Source: a virus
Length of the DNA: 25,639 nt
Virus record (IMG/VR): IMGVR_UViG_3300031746_000155
Coordinates: 1-25,639 of that record
Strand: one strand, 5' to 3'
Shown: piece by piece, positions 4,222 through 25,415 of the stretch
How the letters are laid out: every line of letters starts with the position of its first letter
Numbering within the stretch: the stretch's first letter is position 1
Notes under the pieces: model-generated
Told to the model about the DNA's origin: nothing
The model's input: only the letters and a program-made list of their open reading frames with translations
Database searches by the model: none
Position numbers and translations under genes: made by a program

Positions 4222-4587
4222 ATGACCATCAGCGGAATTCAACTCCGATGCGGTCCCGAGGGCACGGCCGGTATGACCGTTACTCTCGGCGGGACCGTGG
4301 TTGCCGGCGCGCTCTCCAAGATCGGGGACACCGTCGGCGTCTATTTTGAGGGCGGCGATTCGGGCGACGTCGTCTCGTTCGTCTACCGGGCCAAGAAAGT
4401 CCTGCTTCCCAAGGACGCGGGCTCGGCTGAGGCCATCGCCCAGGGTGCCAAGGTCTACTACAACAACGTGACGGGCAAGGTCACGGGCAACGCTGGTGCT
4501 CTTGGCGTTTGCGGACGCTGCATCGAGGCTGCCGTGGCCCTGGCTACGACCGTGCTCGTTGATTTCAACGGCGCCGCGGCCGCGTGA
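4222..4587 (+). CDS. DUF2190-type capsid decoration/cement protein
   Basis: This 121-residue, Gly/Ala/Val-rich, beta-type protein lies immediately before the major capsid gene. The pattern KVLLPKDAGSAEAIAQGAKVYYNNVTGKVT followed by GVCGRCIEAA and a closing VLVDFNG strand matches my knowledge of the DUF2190 family, which is encoded beside major capsid genes and thought to stabilise the shell from outside. (The family was once mislabelled as a phage recombinase.) The start ATG has a consensus AGGAGGT at 4210-4216, six bases upstream, as expected for a high-copy virion protein. Its TGA is 11 bases before the preferred capsid ATG, and its end carries that gene's context. Confidence 0.75.
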   Translation: MTISGIQLRCGPEGTAGMTVTLGGTVVAGALSKIGDTVGVYFEGGDSGDVVSFVYRAKKVLLPKDAGSAEAIAQGAKVYYNNVTGKVTGNAGALGVCGRCIEAAVALATTVLVDFNGAAAA

Positions 4588-4588
4588 C

Positions 4589-4601
4589 GGAGGACACCAT
4601 G
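4589..4601 (+). promoter_or_regulatory. Ribosome site that fixes the capsid start
   Basis: GGAGG at 4589-4593 with five bases before ATG 4599. An upstream in-frame GTG at 4584 overlaps the previous stop and would place this ribosome site inside the coding sequence, so ATG 4599 is preferred. Confidence 0.7.
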
Positions 4602-5603
4602 AAAAAAATATTCAGCAGCTTCGGTAAGATCGATTTCGCCACCAAGGAAGGGCGGGACAAGATCTTCGCGGCTCTCCAGTATTTCGCCTCGAACAAACGG
4701 GCGGAGGCTGAGGCCAAGAAGGTTGCGGCCGCTATGGAGGCCTTCGGCGCCGCGGGCGATTTCCCCGATGCGGCCCGGCAGGTGATCGAGAAGTTCCATG
4801 CCATTCCGGCCTACGACATGGGCTACCAGGAGATCTTCGACATCCGGGACTTCACGGGCACCAACGAGTCCGGGTTCGATATCCTGGACGTTGAGGATGG
4901 CCTGGCCTTCCGCAAGGTCCCCGGGGGCGAAAAGGTCCACATCTTCAAAATGGCGGGCACCAAGGCGACCGTCGACTTCGACATCTACGGCGGCGGCCTG
5001 GGCTGGATGCGGACCCTCATCGACGACAAGAAGTACTGGACCCTGGAGGACAACGCCGTGGCCTTCGTGAATAAGGCCTACGAGAACAAGGCGGCCGCGT
5101 ACTATGCGCTGGTGGAGGCCGTTGGCGCCGGGCACAATATCGCTTGGCAGAATCCTGATCCGGCTACTCTGGCAAACACGGTCGAGACCTACACAGCCAA
5201 CAGGGACGCCCAGACGCTCAACAAGGCGGCCGAGACGATCCTCCTGGCCATCAAAGCCAAGGGTTACGGCGTGACGCTCCAGAACGCGAGTTTCCTCGTT
5301 CCGTGCCCTATCCAGCTCGTTGGCCGGCTCAACAAGGCCCTGGGGCTGATGCTTCAGGGATTCGCCGGTTCACCCAGCCAGATCGCTTACAAGTTCCGCC
5401 TTCTCCCCACCACCATGTTCGCCACGACCACCGCTTACTATGTCTGCATCCCCAAGATCAAAGCCAAAGCCGGCGACAGGATGAACCTCACGATCTTCAA
5501 CAAGTTCGATGAGGAATCCTACAGCGACATCGCCGTCGGCTGGTTCCGGCATGGCGGAGCCATCGGTGATCAGGATCAGTTCGCGAGGTGCGCGATCAGC
5601 TGA
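4599..5603 (+). CDS. Major capsid protein (HK97 fold)
   Basis: The 334-residue product is of usual length for an HK97-fold major head protein. An N-terminal charged helical segment (residues about 10-50, Lys/Glu/Ala-rich) is followed by a region with IPAYDMGYQEIFDIRDFTG and strand-rich segments such as KVHIFKMAGTKATVDFDIYG. A long alpha segment then leads to a C-terminal domain ending in GWFRHGGAIGDQDQFARC. Position after protease/scaffold and decoration protein, plus a strong ribosome site and a terminator immediately after, all fit the most abundant virion protein. I did not recognise a specific named subfamily. Confidence 0.85.
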   Translation: MKKIFSSFGKIDFATKEGRDKIFAALQYFASNKRAEAEAKKVAAAMEAFGAAGDFPDAARQVIEKFHAIPAYDMGYQEIFDIRDFTGTNESGFDILDVEDGLAFRKVPGGEKVHIFKMAGTKATVDFDIYGGGLGWMRTLIDDKKYWTLEDNAVAFVNKAYENKAAAYYALVEAVGAGHNIAWQNPDPATLANTVETYTANRDAQTLNKAAETILLAIKAKGYGVTLQNASFLVPCPIQLVGRLNKALGLMLQGFAGSPSQIAYKFRLLPTTMFATTTAYYVCIPKIKAKAGDRMNLTIFNKFDEESYSDIAVGWFRHGGAIGDQDQFARCAIS

Positions 5604-5636
5604 GGCAAGGGAGGTCTTTTTTAGTACGTAAGAGGT

Positions 5637-5673
5637 AAAGCGGCGGGAGGTAATCCCTCCCGCCAGCTTTTTT
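5637..5673 (+). terminator. Strong rho-independent terminator after capsid gene
   Basis: GGCGGGAGG (5642-5650) pairs perfectly with CCTCCCGCC (5656-5664) across a TAATC loop. Beyond a single bulged A (5665), AAAGC (5637-5641) pairs with GCTTT, and a run of six T follows (5668-5673). This would stop or strongly attenuate transcription leaving the capsid gene. The next start codon is only five bases beyond the T-run, so the terminator effectively separates the head genes from the metabolic cassette. The 5' arm contains GGGAGGT, a ribosome-site-like sequence that would be sequestered when folded. Confidence 0.88.
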
Positions 5674-5677
5674 CGTC

Positions 5678-8341
5678 ATGAGCAAAGAACAGATGGTGAC
5701 GATGAACAGCCCGCGGGTGCGGGAGATCCTCGAGGCTCGTGCTCACGGGATCCCCGTGCCGCCCATGCCGGGCCCCCCCAGCCCCAAGGTCTTGGATATA
5801 TTCCCGGATGGCGCATGGCGCGACCATCGCTGTTTCATCATTGGGGGCGGTCCATCGCTCAAGGGGTTTGACTTCGGGCGGCTCCGGGGCGAGAAAGTCA
5901 TCGCCATAAACAAGGCGTTTTTCGATGTGCCCTGGGCGGACATCATGTTTTCAATAGACCGCGCTTTTCTCGACCTCATCATATCCGGAAAGTTCGGCGA
6001 GAATTATCGTCAAGCCTTTGAATCTTTCGGAGGCGTGAAACTGTGGCTTGATATCTTCAAGTCCAGCTATCCGCCCGGGATCTACTTCGTTCCATCCGCC
6101 GGCAAGATCGGATGGACGCGGAGCCTAAGGGAAGGTCTTTTTCATGGCCAGAATTCAGGCTACGGTGCGCTGAATCTGGCCCTCGTTCTCGGCGCCAACC
6201 CGATCTACCTCCTGGGCTATGATTGCTCACGGGGCCCGGGGGGCGAGACACACTACCATGACGGCTATCCTTGCGGCTTAAAGCCCGAGGATTTAAATAC
6301 TTTTCGATCCGACTTCGAAGCCGGGATGCCATTGCTCCCTCGCGATAGGCGGATCGTGAACCTCAACCCGGATTCAGCTCTCCGGTGTTTTGAGTTTGGG
6401 CGCCTGGAGGATATCAGATTTGCGCTCCCGGCCGACTATCGGCGGGTCTCTGTTCCTTTGGTTCCCCTCCCGCCGGCCGTCCCCAGAAAACCGGAACCGC
6501 CTGTTTTATTCTCCGGCCCGCTGGGCTTCGGAGACAATATCAATCTCAGGATTGTGATCAGGCACTTGGCCCGAAGACATGAGATTATCTACCTCTCCAC
6601 GACCATTCCCGAGGCCTTCTGGGATTTTCCGAACGTTCGGTTCGTGAGGCCCGATCCGGGACATCTGAGAACTCAGGCTAAACATCTCGCCTCCTTCCCC
6701 CCGGATTTCTTTTCTGAAATTCCCAAGGAGACACCCAGGATGGGCTGGGGCCTGGGCTACACACCCCAGAAGTGGCCGAGGCTCTCGGATGGGAACGTCA
6801 AGCAGGCGGATTTCCCGGGAGAGGAGATCACGGTCTCCGAGTGCATTCGCCGCCGGGCCGGAATCCCTCGCGAGGAGTTTGATTTTACATTCCCCGTGAG
6901 ACAAAAGTGGATCGAGGCGGCTCGGAGCTTCGTCTCCGGTTTGGACCTCAAGGGAAAAAAGCTTTGTCTCGTGCGGCCGAATACACTCCGTCCCGAATGG
7001 CTCTGCCCGACACGGAACCCTAAAACCGAGCATTATCAGACGCTCATTGATCTCTATAGGGACGAGTATTTCTTCCTCAGCGTGGCCGACCTCGAGGATG
7101 GCAAGGAATGGCTTGATGGGGAGATCCTGGGGATCGACGCCATTCTCCATCGAGGCGAGGTCCCGTGGTCGACGCTCTTCGGCCTCATTAAGATCAGCGA
7201 CATGTTCATCACCAACCCGGGCTGGGGCATGTTGGCCGGAATCGCGACGAGGGCCAAGACGTTCACGATCTTTGGTGGGGAGCTCCATCCACGTTACTTT
7301 GTGGACGAGCATGTCGGGACCCAGAATTTCGGCTATGTGGCCCCGGATCCTTTTTGTAATTGCTTTAAAATGGAGCATGCCTGTAACAAGAAGATCCCTC
7401 GTAGCCGATTGATTGCGGCCTTCGAAGAGTTGCGAACCAGGCCGAAGTGGGAGAAGCAGATTACCGTCGGCCTTGCACCCGGCCTGGGTGATGTCCATTG
7501 GCCACTCCTGAAGATGGAGTCATTTAAGGAGAAGAATGCGGTCGACCGTCTCCGCATCTCAATCTCCAACGAGCATGATTATCCTTTGGAATTCGCGAGG
7601 CATGTGCCATTTGTCGACGAGGTCCAGAGGTCCAAGCCCAGGTTCCCATTTCGAATGTCTCTTGCCGGCGGCGACGGCCGACCCCTGGATGCGGGAGCGA
7701 ATGGTGCGGATTGCATCATGGAATTCGGTTCCCGCCTCGAGGCCGGCATGTCCCTCGAGAGAATCCTGCCCGAATATGAGACCAACTGGGGGTATGAGAT
7801 CAAGGGCCTTGACGAATACAGCGCCTTTATTGCCGACCTTCGCAAAAAAACCGGAGGCCGGCTCGTTCTCTTCTATCCGTCTTCTGTAGGCTCGAACAAA
7901 AATTGGGCGCGCGGTCAATGGACGCCCGAATCCTGGATAGCCCTCGCGCGTCTCATTAAGGCCAAGAACGGTTGCCCGCCTGTTCTCGTCGGGGCTGAAT
8001 TCGATCGCGACTATGCTGATGTTTTGACATCCAATAGCAATGGCCCTCTTTTTATCAATCTCGTGGGTCAGATGCCGATCATGAAGACCCTGGCGATCGT
8101 TCGCGGGGCCGATCTCATGCTCGGATTCTCGGCAGGGATCGCCATAATGGCGACGCATTTCCGGGTTCCATGCGCGATCTTCTGGCCGATCCGGGGCGTC
8201 TCTGAATATCCGCTCTATAACCCGCTGTTCATGCGCTCGTGGATCCCGCCGTGGGCGGAAGACAATTATTTCGGCTTTGCCTATGGCGATCCCAAGACCA
8301 CTCCCCGTGGAGTATTCGAAACCGTGGAGAAGTTCCTGTGA
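5678..8341 (+). CDS. Three-domain glycosyltransferase: GGGPSL/DUF115-like plus two GT9-like GT-B domains
   Basis: The product has 887 residues. Domain 1 (about 50-260) has the nucleotide-binding-like CFIIGGGPSLKGFDF motif (GGGPSL at 56-61), then VIAINKAF, PWADIMFSID and LLGYDCS with a downstream THYHDG. This resembles DUF115/Maf-like proteins and a GGGPSL protein type often seen in phages. After a proline-rich linker (260-275), domain 2 (about 276-585) and domain 3 (about 595-887) each resemble heptosyltransferase-family (GT9) GT-B folds. Each starts with a Gly loop (GPLGFGDN, GLAPGLGDVHW) and has a sugar-nucleotide half (FITNPGWGMLAGIATRA; YPSSVGSNKNW then LVGQMPIMKTLAIVRGADLMLGFSAG). The role inferred is transfer of sugars to a glycan or virion protein. 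No Shine-Dalgarno precedes the ATG. The stop overlaps the next gene's GTG. Confidence 0.75.
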   Translation: MSKEQMVTMNSPRVREILEARAHGIPVPPMPGPPSPKVLDIFPDGAWRDHRCFIIGGGPSLKGFDFGRLRGEKVIAINKAFFDVPWADIMFSIDRAFLDLIISGKFGENYRQAFESFGGVKLWLDIFKSSYPPGIYFVPSAGKIGWTRSLREGLFHGQNSGYGALNLALVLGANPIYLLGYDCSRGPGGETHYHDGYPCGLKPEDLNTFRSDFEAGMPLLPRDRRIVNLNPDSALRCFEFGRLEDIRFALPADYRRVSVPLVPLPPAVPRKPEPPVLFSGPLGFGDNINLRIVIRHLARRHEIIYLSTTIPEAFWDFPNVRFVRPDPGHLRTQAKHLASFPPDFFSEIPKETPRMGWGLGYTPQKWPRLSDGNVKQADFPGEEITVSECIRRRAGIPREEFDFTFPVRQKWIEAARSFVSGLDLKGKKLCLVRPNTLRPEWLCPTRNPKTEHYQTLIDLYRDEYFFLSVADLEDGKEWLDGEILGIDAILHRGEVPWSTLFGLIKISDMFITNPGWGMLAGIATRAKTFTIFGGELHPRYFVDEHVGTQNFGYVAPDPFCNCFKMEHACNKKIPRSRLIAAFEELRTRPKWEKQITVGLAPGLGDVHWPLLKMESFKEKNAVDRLRISISNEHDYPLEFARHVPFVDEVQRSKPRFPFRMSLAGGDGRPLDAGANGADCIMEFGSRLEAGMSLERILPEYETNWGYEIKGLDEYSAFIADLRKKTGGRLVLFYPSSVGSNKNWARGQWTPESWIALARLIKAKNGCPPVLVGAEFDRDYADVLTSNSNGPLFINLVGQMPIMKTLAIVRGADLMLGFSAGIAIMATHFRVPCAIFWPIRGVSEYPLYNPLFMRSWIPPWAEDNYFGFAYGDPKTTPRGVFETVEKFL

Positions 8342-9345
8342 AGGCCGCAATCCTTGTCCGACACGGCGCCCCCCTTGTTGTGGATGAGGTTGATCCTTTG
8401 GACTTGGGGCAGGGGCAAGCGTTGGTCCGAATCCGAGCTAGTGGAATCTGCGGAAAACAGATCAATGAGATCGCCGGCAATTGCGGGTCGGACAAGTACA
8501 TGCCTCACCTCTTGGGCCATGAGGGAGCGGGTATCGTTCAGGAAATTGGCCCGGGTGTGACGCACTTCAAACCCGGAGATCACGTTGTCCTTCATTGGCG
8601 CAAAGGCGCGGGAATTGAGGCGGAGTGTCCGCGCTATCGCTGGGGCGATGAATTCATCGGTGGGGGGCCGGTAACGACCTTCAACGAGTATGCGGTCGTG
8701 AGCGAGAACCGCTTGACCCGCATCGAGGATGATATTCCTCTGGACCTGGCGGCCCTCATGGGTTGTGCCGTGACAACGGGCCTGGGTGTAGTGCTGAATG
8801 ACGCCCGGCTCCAACCCGGCCAGAGCCTGGCGATCATTGGCTGTGGAGGCGTGGGTTTGAATGTGATCCAGGGGGCGAAGCTCGCGGGGGCCAAAAGCAT
8901 CTGGGCGATAGACCCGGCCGAGGGCAAGATGCTCAAGGCCCATGAGTTCGGGGCTACGCTGACCTCCGAGGTTGTCTATGAATTTCTCCCTGTTCCCGGG
9001 CCGGATATCATCGTGGACACAACGGGCAATCCCGTGCTCATTGCCTGGGCCTTCGCCCTCGTGGCGCCCGGAGGTAAGGTCATTGCGGTTGGCCAACCTC
9101 CCCGGGGCGTCAATCTCGTGCTTCCCGACTTTGCCCGGAACATGAAGGGCAAGACGCTCATGGACAGCCAGGGCGGGGGGACTGACCCAAATGCCGATAT
9201 TCCACTCTATCTTACCTATTGGCGGAGAGGCTTGCTCAAACTTAAAGAACTCATCACTCACCGCTTCCCGCTCGAGGATGTAAATGAGGCGCTGGACATC
9301 ATGCGCTCAGGCGCCGCGGGACGGATCATCCTGGAGATGGCATGA
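8338..9345 (+). CDS. Zinc-type medium-chain dehydrogenase (alcohol dehydrogenase-like)
   Basis: The preferred start is GTG 8338, overlapping the previous TGA (GTGA). An ATG 99 bases upstream would add 33 residues lying inside the glycosyltransferase gene and unlike the family. The 335-residue product begins at the usual MDR N-terminal strand. Expected catalytic zinc ligands are visible: Cys38 in SGICGK, His61-Glu62 in GHEGAG, and Cys143 in MGCAVTTG. The Rossmann motif IGCGGVG (167-173) is followed by an acidic Asp after the second strand (AIDPAE), suggesting NAD(H). The four-cysteine structural-zinc lobe of classical alcohol dehydrogenases is absent; that region reads HWRKGAGIEAECPRYRW. It probably oxidises or reduces a sugar-linked hydroxyl or aldehyde. 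The substrate is unknown. ATGA overlap couples it to the TPP enzyme. Confidence 0.85.
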   Translation: MKAAILVRHGAPLVVDEVDPLDLGQGQALVRIRASGICGKQINEIAGNCGSDKYMPHLLGHEGAGIVQEIGPGVTHFKPGDHVVLHWRKGAGIEAECPRYRWGDEFIGGGPVTTFNEYAVVSENRLTRIEDDIPLDLAALMGCAVTTGLGVVLNDARLQPGQSLAIIGCGGVGLNVIQGAKLAGAKSIWAIDPAEGKMLKAHEFGATLTSEVVYEFLPVPGPDIIVDTTGNPVLIAWAFALVAPGGKVIAVGQPPRGVNLVLPDFARNMKGKTLMDSQGGGTDPNADIPLYLTYWRRGLLKLKELITHRFPLEDVNEALDIMRSGAAGRIILEMA

Positions 9346-10520
9346 CCAAGCGGGGCCTCATCGACTTCGAGAAGCACATCGCCGAACTCTATGATGCCGG
9401 CGAGCTGCCCTACCTTGTTCATCTTTCGGGTGGAAACGAGGATCAACTCATCGAGATTTTCAAGGATATCCGCCCTGATGATTACGTCTTCAGCACTCAC
9501 CGCAACCATTATCACTATCTACTTCACGGCGGATCACCAGAAGCCCTTGAGCAGAAGATCCTCAGCGGCAAAAGCATGTTCGTATTCGATAGAGCGATGA
9601 ATTTCTATTCGTCCTCCATCGTGGCTGCTGCTCCGGCTATTGCCGCGGGCGTGGCCTGGGCGTTGAAGCGCAAGGGAAGTACCCAAAGGGTTTGGTGCTT
9701 CATCGGTGACGGGGCCGAGGATGAGGGTCATTTTTATGAGGCTGCGCGGTACGTGGACGGCTGGGACCTGCCCTGTATGTTCATCATTGAGGACAATGAC
9801 CGGAACGTCGTGGCCTCCAAGCGAGAACGGCGCGGAAACGACCGATTCGACTGGCCCAATTGCGTTCAACGTTATACCTACATGTCGACATATCCTCATG
9901 GCGGGACGGGGACACCTGGCTGGCTGAAGTTCAAGAGCGAGGCGCAAATTGTCACGCACCCGCTCGCCAATGGCGGCTTTGTTCTTTCCTGGCATGAGAC
10001 CATCAAGACCGACAATTATTTCGCCGCCGTCCGACAGTCCTGCGAAAGCCTGGCCGCTGGGGGCGCTATTTTCATCGGTTATAACGTCAAATACGGCGGG
10101 GCTTATGGTACATTCAAGGAAATTCCCGATGATCTGAAGATCGAGACTCCATTGGCTGAGAACCTAATGCTCGGCTTGGGCATGGGCATGAGCCTCGAGG
10201 GATTCCGGCCCGTCGTATTCTTTGAGCGCCATGAATTCCTGATGAATGCGATGGATGCCCTGGTCAATACCCTGGACGTGATCGAGACTATAAGCGATGG
10301 CGAATACCGAATGCCGGTCATTATCAAGGCCGTGGCCGGGGGCATTAAGCCGTTCTATGCGGGATTGACTCATACCCGGAATTTCGCAGATGAGATTCGA
10401 GCCCTAGTCCACTTTCCGGTTTACGCCCCAGAAACAGGGCAGGAAGTGCTTACCGCCTATACCCTGGCACAGAAGGCCCAGGGTCCGGTCATGATCTCGG
10501 AGAAGAAGGAGCTTTATTGA
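9342..10520 (+). CDS. Compact TPP-dependent enzyme: fused E1-alpha-like and E1-beta-like domains
   Basis: This 392-residue protein joins two parts of 2-oxoacid dehydrogenase E1. Residues about 45-170 resemble the E1-alpha PP domain: STHRNHYHYLLHGG corresponds to the RdHgh substrate loop, and GDGAEDEGHFYEAARY ... LPCMFIIEDND is the TPP/Mg motif (GDG at 122-124, closing acidic-Asn at 151-153). Residues about 205-390 resemble the E1-beta PYR domain: GTFKEIPDDLKIETPLAEN, with the Glu expected to activate TPP, then GMSLEGFRPVVFF and a Thr-His motif (AGLTHTRNF). The separate E1 subunits are much longer, and the beta C-terminal transketolase domain is missing. It may catalyse ketol or acyl transfer onto a sugar rather than work in an E2-linked complex. 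Its stop overlaps the next gene's TTG start. Confidence 0.8.
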   Translation: MTKRGLIDFEKHIAELYDAGELPYLVHLSGGNEDQLIEIFKDIRPDDYVFSTHRNHYHYLLHGGSPEALEQKILSGKSMFVFDRAMNFYSSSIVAAAPAIAAGVAWALKRKGSTQRVWCFIGDGAEDEGHFYEAARYVDGWDLPCMFIIEDNDRNVVASKRERRGNDRFDWPNCVQRYTYMSTYPHGGTGTPGWLKFKSEAQIVTHPLANGGFVLSWHETIKTDNYFAAVRQSCESLAAGGAIFIGYNVKYGGAYGTFKEIPDDLKIETPLAENLMLGLGMGMSLEGFRPVVFFERHEFLMNAMDALVNTLDVIETISDGEYRMPVIIKAVAGGIKPFYAGLTHTRNFADEIRALVHFPVYAPETGQEVLTAYTLAQKAQGPVMISEKKELY

Positions 10521-11197
10521 ACGTTCTCGTCACCGGCTCATCTCACGGCCTCGGAGCCGCCCTGGCCTTGAAGTTTGCGCGGGAAGGGTGTGGAGTCATT
10601 CTCCACGGTCGGGACGGAAAGGCGTTGACCTTGATCTCGGAGGAAATTGAATCCTACGGTAGGCCCGCCCTCAAGGTCAAGGGGGATATTCAAAAGAAGA
10701 AAACCATTGACCGTCTCTATCAAGCGGCCCGGAAAATGGATATCAATATTCTCATCAACAACGCGGGTTCCTATTACAGGGGCCCGGCCGTCGAATCATT
10801 GGGGAAGACCCTCGAATCGGTGATCGGAACGAATCTCATTGCTCCCATCCGGCTGTCGCTTTTCGTCTATCAATTCTTTGTCGCCAAGGGCCACGGACTC
10901 ATCGTGAACATCAATTCCCTGGCCGGGAAGGGATTCAACGACCAAGAGGCTATCTATTCTGCTTCGAAGTGGGGGCTGCGTGGGTTCATGGGATCCTTCA
11001 AGCACGAAGCGCGCAAGAACGGCGTATATGTCCTTGATGTTTTTCTGGGAGCGATGCGGACTGGTATGTCCGCCGAAAAGGCCAAGTTTCTCAATCTCAT
11101 CAACCCGGATGAAGCAGCCTCGGCGATCTACCGGGCCTGCATAGATTACAGAACGGCAAACGTGAATGAGATCGAGATCGGCCGGAGGCAACCATGA
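10517..11197 (+). CDS. Short-chain dehydrogenase/reductase
   Basis: A classical SDR of 226 residues, slightly short for the family. The cofactor motif TGSSHGLG is at 6-13, NNAG at 81-84, and the catalytic triad is recognisable as Ser134 (NINSLAG) and YSASK (Tyr147, Lys151). The start is a TTG overlapping the TPP-enzyme stop (TTGA), which places M-N-V-L-V directly at the first Rossmann strand as the family requires. It would reduce a ketone or oxidise a hydroxyl with NAD(P)H, plausibly the product of the upstream TPP enzyme; the substrate is not visible. Its last bases contain the GGAGG for the neck adaptor gene and it overlaps that gene by ATGA. Confidence 0.88.
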   Translation: MNVLVTGSSHGLGAALALKFAREGCGVILHGRDGKALTLISEEIESYGRPALKVKGDIQKKKTIDRLYQAARKMDINILINNAGSYYRGPAVESLGKTLESVIGTNLIAPIRLSLFVYQFFVAKGHGLIVNINSLAGKGFNDQEAIYSASKWGLRGFMGSFKHEARKNGVYVLDVFLGAMRTGMSAEKAKFLNLINPDEAASAIYRACIDYRTANVNEIEIGRRQP

Positions 11198-11708: not shown

Positions 11709-13073
11709 ATGTCGAACCCTGCCGGCCAGATCCCGATGAATGCGCGAGTCGCAGAGATAGCGGGGATCTATGCCCGGGCACAGCAGGCGCTGAAGGCTGA
11801 GCTTTCGATGACCACGCCGGGAAGCTATTCAAACCTCAATGCTTCAAAGGCAAAGCACAGGGCCGAGCGCATCATCGGTGAATTGAACGCGAGCGCCCAG
11901 AGGTGGGTGGCGGATCCGTATGTAGCCCGGGGCGCGGCGCTCTATTTCGCCCGCGTCAATTTTATGATCCTCAAATCCACGAGGACCTATCTGGCGGCCC
12001 GGGCCCATGATGCGCAGCAGCTTGAGGCGGATCCCGAAAACCTGAGCCGGGTCGGCCTTATCTCGTCACGGATCCTCAATGGGATCTCCGGGCCTGGGCT
12101 TGGAGTCCATATTGAAGCCGCTGCCCGCGATCTGGTCCGGGAAGCCCGGATCGAAGCGATGGCCGGGGGGCGCCGGCGGAACGCGATCATCACCGGAAAA
12201 GAATCCCATGCGCTTCTCCGGAGGTTTCTCGACGCGCATGAACAGAATGTGATTGTGGCTATATTGAGCACCTGGGGAGCCCAGGCGGATCTCATCTCTG
12301 AATTCATCCTCAAGCGGATGCTTTCAACCGGCAAGCCGGATCCCTACCTCATCGATTCTTTTAACCGAATGAACCGGGCGGCCGTCCGGGATGGGGTCAT
12401 GGCCAAGGCGGCCAGGGGGATGACTGAGGCGAGTACCGATATCGAGACGCGGGCCAGGCTGATATTCAAGGAAGAAGGGACGGTTCTCCCGCGCCCTCGA
12501 AGATCAAGGTATTTCGAGTATTTCACGGGGACGCAGGCGGCGATCCAAAAGTTCATCGACAAAAGGGGAGCGGCCCTTGTCACCAACCTCAACGCCGATG
12601 GCCTGGCTGTGCTTCGGGCGATGCTGGATATTGCCCTCGAGCACATGCTCAGCCCCTACCAGCTTTCACGGATCGTGAAGCCCTGCATTGGCCTGACTGA
12701 CCGCGATGCGGGAGCCGTCTCGAAGTTACTCACTTCACTTCTTGATCAGGGCATGTCCTATGATGAGGCGCTGGCCAAGGCCAAGGAATACGCGGACGAA
12801 CTCCGTGATGCCCGGGCCATGAACATCGCCCGGACGGAGTTGGCTGAGGCCTTCAATCAGGGCCAGCTCGATGCCCTCCAGGATGCCATGTACGAACTCG
12901 GGGCACAGGCAGCCAAGGACTGGGAAACGGCGCAGGATGAGCGGACCTGCGAAGAATGCGCGGGGTTGGACGGGGAGACCGTGGGAATCAATGAATCTTT
13001 CTCCAATGGTGCCGTCTGCCCGCCGGCACATCCCTCATGCCGCTGTTCACTCGGCTATACGATGCTCCAATGA
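11709..13073 (+). CDS. Mu gpF-like minor head protein (SPP1 gp7 family)
   Basis: A 454-residue, largely helical protein. Near the C-terminus it has the hallmark cluster of the Mu F/SPP1 gp7 family: ERTCEECAGLDGE, then VCPPAHPSCRCSLGY (about residues 411-450). Arg-Asn-rich helices with NIARTELAEAFNQGQ precede it, as is usual. Members associate with the portal inside or at the head vertex and affect DNA ejection or packaging. In many phages this gene directly follows the portal; here it is displaced to after the capsid, cassette and adaptor genes. The start ATG lies just after the previous stop, with only a weak purine stretch upstream. It overlaps the next gene at ATGATG. Confidence 0.85.
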   Translation: MSNPAGQIPMNARVAEIAGIYARAQQALKAELSMTTPGSYSNLNASKAKHRAERIIGELNASAQRWVADPYVARGAALYFARVNFMILKSTRTYLAARAHDAQQLEADPENLSRVGLISSRILNGISGPGLGVHIEAAARDLVREARIEAMAGGRRRNAIITGKESHALLRRFLDAHEQNVIVAILSTWGAQADLISEFILKRMLSTGKPDPYLIDSFNRMNRAAVRDGVMAKAARGMTEASTDIETRARLIFKEEGTVLPRPRRSRYFEYFTGTQAAIQKFIDKRGAALVTNLNADGLAVLRAMLDIALEHMLSPYQLSRIVKPCIGLTDRDAGAVSKLLTSLLDQGMSYDEALAKAKEYADELRDARAMNIARTELAEAFNQGQLDALQDAMYELGAQAAKDWETAQDERTCEECAGLDGETVGINESFSNGAVCPPAHPSCRCSLGYTMLQ

Positions 13074-22688: not shown

Positions 22689-23747
22689 ATGAAAAAAAAC
22701 ATCCGTCAATGTCTTCTCGTTATTTTTATTTTGGCCTTTTGCGCAATTTCTGTTTTTGCCCAGCCTGCCGTAAAGGTCAGGGTTTGGAATTCCGCATATA
22801 ACCATTATTTCACCTTGGCATGGCCGGAGGCGGATTCCGCGAATCGGATGCTCAATTTTACGTTGGCTGGAGAGGATAGAAGCCTCAGCCTTGCCGGCGA
22901 TTTCACCCTAAGCGGAAGTAATCAAGTTGCCAACTGGACAGCAACTACGGCGGTTTATTCCCCATCTATTTATGGTGGAACCGGAGTGGACGGAGACCTG
23001 AATTTATATTCAACTTCAAACGCGACAAGAGGAACGGTCACCGTTAATGACCCGATAGAGATTCCATCGACAGGCCGGAATTTAAAAACATGGTGGAACT
23101 TTGAGGAATTTATTCAAAGATCAGTTACGGCAAGCATATCAGGGATTTGGGCAGGTAATCAAAGCGGAACCGGGGCGACTAGCTCAGATCAGGTTGGCAC
23201 TAATCTTCGTCCAGGTCTCAATCAGCTTACAACGGGGACTACGGCTACCGGATATGCCTATCTTTACACGGGCGGCGCAGCTTTGGGTGCTTTTTTATTC
23301 GGGAACGGGACTTATACGATGGAAGGCGATATTTATATCGGCAATCTTTCCGATGTAACGGAAACATATACTCTTCGATTTGGATTCGGAGATTCGGGAA
23401 CAGGCACTCCGGTTGATGGTGCATATTTTTATTACACTGATGCCGGAGCAAATCCAAATTGGTATCGAAATACGGTATCCAATTCGGTCTTAACTTCTAC
23501 TGATACGACCGTGGCCGCAGTCGCTGGAGCATGGATAAGGCTCAAGGTCGTGGTCAATTTGAATGCAACGTCTGTAGAATATTTTATAAATGGAACTTCC
23601 GTAGGATCGAATGTGGCAAATATTCCGAGTGGGGCAGGTCGCAATACGGCGGCTATTTATTCTCTCATTAAATCAGCGGGGACAACAAGCCGATATGCGC
23701 GAATAGATTGGGCTTGGCTTCATATTGATTTGACGGCTTCGAGGTAA
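22689..23747 (+). CDS. Exported fibre-like protein with LamG-type domain
   Basis: A 352-residue protein with a clear Sec signal at the N-terminus: MKKNIR, a hydrophobic core about 8-20, and VFA-Q with probable cleavage after Ala24. Residues about 45-75 (RMLNFTLAGEDRSLSLAGDFTLSGS) look like repeats in phage fibre shafts. Residues about 185-350 look like a LamG/concanavalin-type jelly roll, with YTMEGDIYIGNLSD, YTLRFGFGDSG and WIRLKVVVNLNATSVEYFING. Fibre proteins act in the cytoplasm, so a signal peptide is unexpected. The ribosome site (TAGGAGGA) is strong and the base composition is visibly more AT-rich than the preceding genes. It may be a host-surface or secreted protein rather than a virion part. 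Confidence 0.65.
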   Translation: MKKNIRQCLLVIFILAFCAISVFAQPAVKVRVWNSAYNHYFTLAWPEADSANRMLNFTLAGEDRSLSLAGDFTLSGSNQVANWTATTAVYSPSIYGGTGVDGDLNLYSTSNATRGTVTVNDPIEIPSTGRNLKTWWNFEEFIQRSVTASISGIWAGNQSGTGATSSDQVGTNLRPGLNQLTTGTTATGYAYLYTGGAALGAFLFGNGTYTMEGDIYIGNLSDVTETYTLRFGFGDSGTGTPVDGAYFYYTDAGANPNWYRNTVSNSVLTSTDTTVAAVAGAWIRLKVVVNLNATSVEYFINGTSVGSNVANIPSGAGRNTAAIYSLIKSAGTTSRYARIDWAWLHIDLTASR

Positions 23748-24065: not shown

Positions 24066-25415
24066 ATGAAAAAACTAACTCTACTTTTGATCTTGGCTCT
24101 GGCTCTTGTCTTTACCGCCTGCCCGCCGCCGCATCCGCAGACGGTCCAGGTCGAGGTCTGCTCAACGAGCAGCCTGCTGCCCGTGGAGTGGTGCCCGGTT
24201 AAAGAGGTGCGGACTTTCACGATCGGACAGCAACCGACTACGCCCTGTCAGGTCCATAGGGGGGTCAAGGTTTGCTCCGAGACCGGCCGGCGGGCCGTGG
24301 CCTGCTGCCCGGATGTGGTCGAGGTCGCTGAGGCTGGGGCCCCCGATCTCTATTGCCGGCGTCATGCACGGAACGTCTTGGCCTCCCCCTGGCTGGTCCT
24401 GGCCTGGCTGGATGCCCAGAGCAAGTGGCAAAGATATACGCCGGAAGAAAAGGAGCAGTTTTGTCAGCGCGTAGGCGGAGCCGGGCTTTTCGTCATGAGA
24501 ATATTTTTTCCAGGTTGGGCTGATGATGGACCTAACGGTTGCGTGTTTCCCTATGAACAAGAGGCAGACGGTGGATGGAATCTTGATAAACCGAACCCAC
24601 TCTATTATGAGAATCTTCATGACATGGCCACCATGCTCGGCCGCTATGAAGTCGGCCTCTATGTGGACATGGCCGATCAGTGCTCCTGGGACCGGCCCTG
24701 GGATTGTTGGCGTCGGAACATCAATGGCGTCTATGGCTGGATGGATACTTCGCCAACCGCCCTGGCCTACTGGAAGGCGGCGGTTGACCGGGTACTGGCC
24801 GCGATAGGCGGCTCAGAAGGGAATATCATCGGCCTGGGGAATGAACTCCAGCGTTTCGATGATGATGACGTTACCCTGGCTTGGGCTCTGGCCTGGGCTA
24901 AGCCGAGAGTGGATTATCTCATCGGCCTCGGGATCGCCAAGCCGATCACGTTCTCAGGCGGTGGTCGGACAGCCCATAAGATCGTCGGGGCCATCTCGGA
25001 TGAGGACGGGAATTATCCCGACAATTCCTATCTCGCAATTATAGAGCATGGGATCGCCCTTGTAGATCACACCCCGCCCGGCTCCACGTCCCTTGAGGCT
25101 TGGCTGGCCGGCTACTCCAAGTTTCATCTACTTGGCCTATCAGACGACGGCGGTACGACTCAGACCTGGAATCAGATCCCGCCCGAGAAGCGGGGGACGT
25201 GCTCCGGGGATTGCTGCCAGGCGAATGTAGCCGAGAAGATCAAGCTCATAAAACTATTCAGTCAGTATTTCGTCGAAGGTCAATTCCGAATCGTTGAATT
25301 TTTGCCCAGGGAGATATCCTGGAATGAGCATATCTCCGCCCTGGCCGACGAAAGCCTTGAGGCGTTTTGGAGGGTCGGGCTGGAGTTCGGAGTGGATGTC
25401 AGGCGGACGTTTTAG
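24066..25415 (+). CDS. Putative glycosidase-fold lipoprotein with duplicated Cys/His motifs
   Basis: Residues 1-18 are a lipoprotein signal with FTAC (lipidated Cys19 likely; Phe at -3 is less common). Residues 32-64 and 70-100 are two tandem motifs, C-x10-CP-x16-C-x2-H and C-x10-CP-x14-C-x2-H, reminiscent of the C-rich region near the end of class A penicillin-binding proteins. The rest (about 105-449) resembles a (beta/alpha)8 glycosidase fold. IIGLGNELQRF has the Asn-Glu (259-260) of clan GH-A acid/base sites, and a possible second Glu lies in RIVEFLPREI (Glu411). It ends on TAG overlapping a convergent gene. A host-surface moron, exclusion factor or envelope hydrolase is possible; no exact family is claimed. 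Confidence 0.6.
   Translation: MKKLTLLLILALALVFTACPPPHPQTVQVEVCSTSSLLPVEWCPVKEVRTFTIGQQPTTPCQVHRGVKVCSETGRRAVACCPDVVEVAEAGAPDLYCRRHARNVLASPWLVLAWLDAQSKWQRYTPEEKEQFCQRVGGAGLFVMRIFFPGWADDGPNGCVFPYEQEADGGWNLDKPNPLYYENLHDMATMLGRYEVGLYVDMADQCSWDRPWDCWRRNINGVYGWMDTSPTALAYWKAAVDRVLAAIGGSEGNIIGLGNELQRFDDDDVTLAWALAWAKPRVDYLIGLGIAKPITFSGGGRTAHKIVGAISDEDGNYPDNSYLAIIEHGIALVDHTPPGSTSLEAWLAGYSKFHLLGLSDDGGTTQTWNQIPPEKRGTCSGDCCQANVAEKIKLIKLFSQYFVEGQFRIVEFLPREISWNEHISALADESLEAFWRVGLEFGVDVRRTF

Follow-up and report, generated by a model that had tools for sequence, protein, structure and literature searches.

The IMG/VR virus record IMGVR_UViG_3300031746_000155 was analysed over its entire length of 25,639 bases (hereafter the window), which possibly covers only part of its genome. 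Between the gene of the major capsid protein (MCP) and the first neck gene it carries a cassette of four genes (positions 5678-11197), which encode a DUF115-GT9-GT9 glycosyltransferase (GT), a zinc-dependent dehydrogenase, a compact thiamine pyrophosphate (TPP) enzyme and a short-chain dehydrogenase/reductase (SDR). We have little doubt that this cassette makes and transfers a sugar. The best overall explanation, which we put forward tentatively, is that the slot between capsid and neck genes holds a phage glycosylation cassette, whose product, a branched heptose-type sugar, would be attached to a virion protein. A search limited to the open-licence literature yielded no description of this cassette, and within that literature the recurrent capsid-neck sugar cassette is undescribed; phage glycosylation as such is already known.

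Organization of the cassette

The head/neck/tail operon on the plus strand of the window has the following gene order: TerL, portal, MCP, cassette, Ad1-like adaptor, Mu F-like protein, more neck and tail genes, and tape measure. The features of the capsid-neck region are:

4584-5603, plus strand: MCP (Phage_capsid_4, 3.5e-4; phrog_24071, 2e-13; syntenic MCP in relatives), directly upstream of the cassette
5642-5674, plus strand: terminator-like hairpin and T run between MCP and cassette (hairpin 5642-5664; 9-bp stem with 8 G-C pairs, then AGCTTTTTTC)
5678-8341, plus strand: DUF115-GT9-GT9 protein, 887 aa
8338-9345, plus strand: zinc-dependent dehydrogenase (ADH) of the medium-chain (MDR) type, GTG start at 8338, 335 aa
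9342-10520, plus strand: compact TPP enzyme, 392 aa
10517-11197, plus strand: SDR, TTG start at 10517, 226 aa
11194-11706, plus strand: Ad1-like head-tail adaptor (phrog_477, weak, 0.0056; syntenic homologues in relatives), overlapping the SDR stop; right border of the slot
11709-13073, plus strand: Mu F-like head morphogenesis protein (PF04233, 1e-17)

All four open reading frames (ORFs) were found in the order, and with the overlaps and junctions, given in the preliminary description of this DNA. That description also regarded the cassette as translationally coupled to virion genes, which is true among its own genes and into the neck gene, the junctions being GTGA (8338), ATGA (9342), TTGA (10517) and ATGA (11194, into the adaptor). 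It is not true of the 5' side, where the cassette lacks coupling to the MCP gene because a gap of 74 nt, containing the G+C-rich terminator hairpin, separates the MCP and GT genes.

The fold z-score of the region 5600-5680 is -3.5, and a post-MCP hairpin of similar kind is present in 10 of 20 relatives, against an expectation of 0.0 from mononucleotide shuffling. The hairpin stands after the MCP gene and before the DUF115 gene in the window, in L029, L044, L072, L077 and L081, and in others. In half of the related phages it probably separates the expression of the MCP from that of the sugar genes, and the cassette is probably transcribed less than the MCP gene.

Two other origins of the cassette were rejected. 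Its GC content (0.54-0.60) and GC3 (0.66-0.69) are near the values of the flanking genes, so that the composition shows no sign of a recent foreign insertion. Chance ORFs or an assembly artefact are ruled out by the existence of second contigs with the same genes (L002 and L042) and by the conservation of catalytic residues in relatives.

Recurrence in related and unrelated phages

A portal-profile scan gave 44 contigs related to the window. After dereplication, 20 of the contigs extend 700 nt or more past the MCP gene, and every one of them has a DUF115 gene no farther than 1.2 kb from it. This position would correspond to that of a Maf gene beside the gene of its glycosylated structural protein if the MCP were indeed glycosylated. 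The remainder of the interval between MCP and Ad1 varies among relatives and may hold genes for GT2, GT9, cupin, epimerase, B12-radical SAM or methyltransferase proteins; L044, for example, has DUF115, GT2-like and methyltransferase-like genes. In L003 the slot is reduced to the DUF115-GT9-GT9 gene with one small gene, the ADH-TPP-SDR triad being placed upstream of TerL. L087 and, on partial contigs, L004 and L090 likewise have the triad ahead of their terminase and portal genes. The earlier statement that the cassette is not a loose insertion is not supported, since the triad moves and the slot holds other sugar genes elsewhere.

A second group of seven contigs (L116-L119, L122/L123, L124, L176) has an MCP of another family (phrog_771), with no detectable relation to the window MCP. 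Here the MCP gene is followed by one or two small genes, a DUF115 gene, the ADH, TPP and SDR genes, often with a heptose-7-phosphate kinase gene (in varying order), and a tandem GT9. Neck connectors follow the tandem GT9 in L119 and L176, where the locus reaches far enough; L116 and L124 end before any SDR could show, and the DUF115 protein of L117 is only weakly similar (0.003). A PF25209 search gave no match in ten contigs of other groups, which fits different capsid families. In L043, with a third MCP family (phrog_29), a tandem GT and methyltransferases occupy a similar position. The link between the sugar set and virion genes, proposed from the window alone, is thus strengthened by its recurrence in an unrelated capsid lineage, and the genes do co-occur in other phages rather than being scattered, the alternative that the preliminary description had allowed for.

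The closest published counterparts are found in cyanophages. The SDR, ADH and TPP genes are adjacent in P-TIM68 (gp188-190) and the ADH and TPP genes in S-SM2 (SSM2_197-198), in both cases within lipopolysaccharide (LPS)/heptose clusters. The ADH (46-47%) and the fused TPP enzyme (50-53%) are homologous to those of the window and have glycosyltransferases nearby, and P-TIM68 shares with the window an SDR beside the pair. Unlike those of the window, however, these genes are located outside the virion operon, in long nucleotide-sugar clusters near other carbohydrate genes. The gene set is therefore not unique: the two published genomes, the PHROGs families phrog_34187 and phrog_2640, and other IMG/VR contigs contradict the first impression that no phage system with these genes had been described.

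Cyanophage LPS clusters were noted before and their function was left unassigned, the question being whether they are functional or stuffer DNA (PMC3037559). They lend weight to a rival explanation, in which the cassette modifies the host envelope: at a late stage of infection its enzymes would add a modified heptose or nucleotide sugar to LPS or to some other glycan of the cell surface, which would hide receptors from released progeny or keep rival phages out. The classical role of GT9 enzymes is that of LPS heptosyltransferases, cyanophages carry their TPP and ADH genes in LPS-type clusters (PMC3037559), and cellular relatives adjoin envelope-sugar genes. On the other hand, the set recurs between the MCP and the neck genes of unrelated capsid lineages, and a DUF115 gene is constant beside the MCP, neither of which favours an envelope target; nor were genes for a flippase, a polymerase or an O-antigen ligase noticed in the window. 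We regard this explanation as rather unlikely.

The glycosyltransferase

The first protein of the cassette consists of a DUF115/Maf-Cst-II-like domain (approximately aa 50-245) and two GT9-like, heptosyltransferase-type domains (approximately aa 275-590 and 594-887). It matched phrog_4603 ('alpha-2,3-sialyltransferase', 1e-25) and phrog_6804. The match to MptE-like/DUF115 (PF01973, 9e-4) reached 19.5 bits, below the curated cut-off of 34.6, and a profile comparison with Cst-II gave a weak match; because of this PF01973 score we call the domain DUF115-like and do not file the protein as Maf. The label GT9-GT9 of the preliminary description was only partly borne out. A Pfam search of the window protein did not detect GT9. 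The label agrees with profile matches to ADP-heptose LPS heptosyltransferase II (1psw, 5e-5) and TibC (6e-4), with a GT9 match above the cut-off in the homologue L093 (8e-6), and with Foldseek matches to 3tov (GT9) and 1psw, which count as weak because the GT model is poor.

PF01973 is the central domain of the Maf flagellin glycosyltransferases, is Cst-II-like, and in Maf serves the glycosylation of a self-assembling structural protein (PMC11339370). By a weak match, the window protein would fall into the same Pfam family as Maf (Maf_flag10), from which it differs in having a capsid gene as neighbour and GT9-like domains as fusion partners. By fold and profile matches its GT part resembles the GT-B heptosyltransferases WaaF and WaaC (GT9) as well as TibC and other bacterial autotransporter heptosyltransferases, of which TibC puts heptose on a protein serine (PMC4358343); the window protein is set apart by its tandem domains, its DUF115 fusion and its phage origin. 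As a precedent for a capsid target, mycobacteriophages Che8 and Rita are reported to encode glycosyltransferases and to bear glycans on the major capsid protein (PMC11256854), where no ADH/TPP/SDR sugar-building module is reported.

GT-B enzymes can act on DNA, and the cassette might instead modify phage DNA or a small nucleotide, yielding a glycosylated base. Glycosylation of DNA does occur in phages. However, the GT domains resemble heptosyltransferases, and neither in the window nor near the TPP genes did we notice a gene for hydroxymethylating or otherwise modifying bases, so that a DNA target appears very improbable.

In L072 (8939-10482), L077 (10741-12362) and L081 (8080-10520), the ORF following the DUF115 gene shares the short leader of the DUF115 protein (MAIITTRD/GDxRVAEIM...) and has a different domain. 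It looks as if N-terminal tags were shared among the slot proteins of these contigs.

The dehydrogenases and the TPP enzyme

The ADH matched ADH_N (2e-19), ADH_zinc_N (1e-13) and phrog_2640 (1e-82), and the Cys/His/Cys positions of its catalytic zinc ligands are invariant in 31/31 relatives. The SDR matched adh_short (2e-38); its sequence TGSSHGLG fits the TGxxxGxG motif, and the Tyr and Lys of YxxxK are invariant in 20/20 relatives.

The TPP enzyme is composed of an E1-alpha-like pyrophosphate (PP) domain (approximately 1-185), a linker and an E1-beta-like pyrimidine (Pyr) domain (approximately 226-392), after which it ends. As it lacks the C-terminal transketolase domain, we do not file it as a complete E1 or transketolase. 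It is a member of phrog_34187 (1e-145), with matches to E1_dh (6e-19) and Transket_pyr (4e-5); the listed matches include no decarboxylase family. The structure model (pLDDT 82, pTM 0.85) matches the folds of 1-deoxy-D-xylulose-5-phosphate synthase (DXS), transketolase and E1. The GDG and N positions of the cofactor motif GDG...N in the PP domain are kept in 110-112 of 112 sequences, and E273, the catalytic Glu by which the Pyr domain (aligned to E1-beta) would contact the aminopyrimidine, is invariant in 110/110.

This phage TPP family is widespread, relatives having been found in 371 viral contigs in one viral scan (the best 80 were kept). In bacterial genomes a single-sequence scan for the TPP gene found nothing, and an alignment-based scan gave five cellular loci and one weak match. 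Close relatives are rare in the genomes sampled: the 390 from the class to which the Prochlorococcus genome belongs yielded none beyond the seed and one divergent pair (L048), and of the 395 from the phylum of a Desulfobacterales metagenome-assembled genome the seed alone carries one; the remaining matches look like ordinary pyruvate dehydrogenase (PDH) E1 alpha. The very divergent alpha/beta pair of L048 is flanked by a B12-radical SAM gene and an epimerase-type gene.

E1-like proteins paired with dehydrogenases also occur in acetoin systems, as AcoA/AcoB. The cassette might accordingly be a module of central metabolism, for acetoin/2,3-butanediol or 2-oxo acids, formed by the E1-like enzyme, the zinc dehydrogenase and the SDR and placed near glycosyltransferases by chance; the annotated acoA of an Acinetobacter phage record is a distant match. 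This seems the least credible of the explanations considered, as no E2 or lipoyl protein was noticed nearby and the neighbours in phages and cells are glycosyltransferases, epimerases and heptose kinases.

Possible oxidizing partners of the TPP enzymes

Relatives of the TPP enzyme occur in a fused form, as in the window, and in a split form with an alpha chain of approximately 204 aa and a beta chain of approximately 172 aa. After dereplication of the loci at 80% identity, an ADH gene was located at most three genes away in 16/16 fused loci and a radical SAM enzyme in none of the 16, whereas a radical SAM/SPASM enzyme accompanied 12/13 split loci and an ADH none of the 13. This partner pattern is strong, though few independent events underlie it: the TPP tree requires no more than two switches between fused and split forms, and the many unsupported forks of the PP-domain tree mean that it does not fix the number of fusion events. 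The pattern suggests that the pathway includes an oxidation step that either enzyme class can perform. A precedent exists in the aminoglycoside pathways, where one and the same oxidation is carried out by BtrN, a radical SAM/SPASM enzyme, and by NAD-dependent dehydrogenases.

Split TPP genes stand beside a radical SAM/SPASM gene in L005-L024 and L126-L172. In L005-L024 a glycosyltransferase gene (phrog_1574) follows, genes resembling RecE, RecT and RusA adjoin, and the locus is outside the virion operon. In a 735-kb phage (LR756501; L027, 4959-10880) a radical SAM/SPASM gene is preceded by the TPP beta gene and followed by the TPP alpha gene, and the three are enclosed by two related ORFs, one of which is of the sugar C-methyltransferase type (Methyltransf_13/14), while the other groups with it.

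The partner pattern bears on a further rival explanation, that of precursor supply. Here the TPP enzyme would be a minimal transketolase making sedoheptulose 7-phosphate for the ADP-heptose pathway, the ADH and SDR would serve unrelated redox trimming, and the sugar would remain unbranched. The fold matches to transketolase and DXS, the adjoining heptose-pathway genes and the PP-Pyr order, as in transketolase, are in line with it. However, it leaves the strict ADH or radical SAM partner unexplained, the sequence is E1-like (PDH E1 alpha, 8e-26; transketolase, 4e-6), and transketolase is normally present in hosts. Overall, we consider precursor supply improbable.

The sugar substrate

The gene neighbours point to heptose, and the tandem GT domains resemble heptosyltransferases in sequence. 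Several cassettes of the second group encode a D-glycero-D-manno-heptose-7-phosphate kinase (TIGR02198; four scored 270-352 bits, one of them exceeding the cut-off of 345), and genes for HldE-type kinase and adenylyltransferase lie near the TPP and ADH genes of cyanophages. A Prochlorococcus single-cell genome (L037, 1624-6494) has the ADH and fused TPP genes beside GmhB, HldE and epimerase genes, on a 6.5-kb contig that could be host or phage DNA, and a Nanoarchaeota contig (L039) has an HldE-like fusion. The chances that heptose is the substrate seem to us about even. As the window encodes no heptose kinase or nucleotidyltransferase, it would presumably draw on host ADP-heptose.

Proposed pathway and acceptor

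Based on these observations, we suggest the following pathway, whose reaction order and pyruvate donor are conjectural. The ADH would first turn a hydroxyl of a heptose-type sugar into a ketone, acting on the sugar as such or on its nucleotide form. To this ketone the compact, E1-like TPP enzyme would add the two-carbon unit left by decarboxylation of a 2-oxo acid, probably pyruvate, giving a branched or extended sugar, and the SDR would reduce the new acetyl ketone to hydroxyethyl. Finally, the DUF115-GT9-GT9 protein, a putative fusion of Maf-like and heptosyltransferase-like parts, would attach this sugar to a protein of the virion, for which the capsid protein encoded just upstream is the likeliest candidate.

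Protein families, catalytic residues and sugar/heptose neighbourhoods agree with a set of genes that builds and transfers a sugar, as originally proposed. By analogy, the chemistry that would fit best is the one suggested then, a two-carbon transfer as in the alpha-keto-acid-dehydrogenase-like enzymes of branched sugars. These E1-type enzymes (alpha-KADH2) branch keto-sugars with acetyl from pyruvate, the ketone being sometimes reduced afterwards (PMC12247030, PMC4753412). Examples come from the aldgamycin, kibdelomycin (KbDH-alpha/beta) and avilamycin (AviB1/AviB2) pathways, whose E1-like alpha/beta proteins are likened to the phage enzyme by description, not by alignment. They belong to antibiotic pathways, whereas the phage enzyme, which lacks the C-terminal domain, is a single chain, and its sister form is made up of two short ones. 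YerE, too, adds an acetyl branch to a sugar in a TPP-dependent manner, in this case to an envelope sugar (yersiniose of LPS), but belongs to the decarboxylase superfamily (PMC12247030); unlike YerE, the phage enzyme is of the E1/transketolase kind and has its PP domain ahead of the Pyr domain. We rate two-carbon branching slightly below an even chance.

That the acceptor is a virion protein appears somewhat more probable than not. It is argued for by gene position only, the main argument being the repeated use of the capsid-neck slot, which is not proof.

Several points weigh against a capsid-directed branched heptose. The recurrence of the MCP slot could reflect high late expression instead of a virion target. 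The TPP genes of cyanophages and of the phages with split enzymes lie outside the virion operon, so that a virion target cannot hold throughout; L003 has its triad at a distance from the GT. Likeness to E1 in sequence does not fix the reaction, the DUF115 score and the structure model of the GT are weak, and the heptose-activating genes are missing from the window.

The preferred explanation can be extended: in several unrelated tailed-phage lineages, a Maf-like DUF115 protein would decorate the capsid with a TPP-branched heptose, the ketone being produced either by a zinc dehydrogenase or by a radical SAM/SPASM dehydrogenase, i.e. by a two-route pathway. This wider proposal is speculative, and we think it unlikely to hold in full.

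Downstream of the tail genes, two late ORFs (22689-23747 and 24066-25415) have signal-peptide or lipoprotein-like N-termini (MKKNIRQCLLVIFILAFCAISVFA... and MKKLTLLLILALALVFTAC...).

Implications

If the glycosylation explanation is true, these environmental phages have next to the capsid gene a whole locus that acts as a variable module for sugar coating, anchored by a conserved DUF115 gene, and a testable reaction can be assigned to a TPP family of hundreds of viral contigs. It would also help to explain the role of the cyanophage 'LPS' genes, for which functional and stuffer DNA were considered (PMC3037559), and might provide a source of compact new carboligases for branched-sugar synthesis. 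Should the wider proposal of a capsid-linked, TPP-branched heptose with two oxidation routes prove correct, it would constitute a viral glycan and a pathway not described before.

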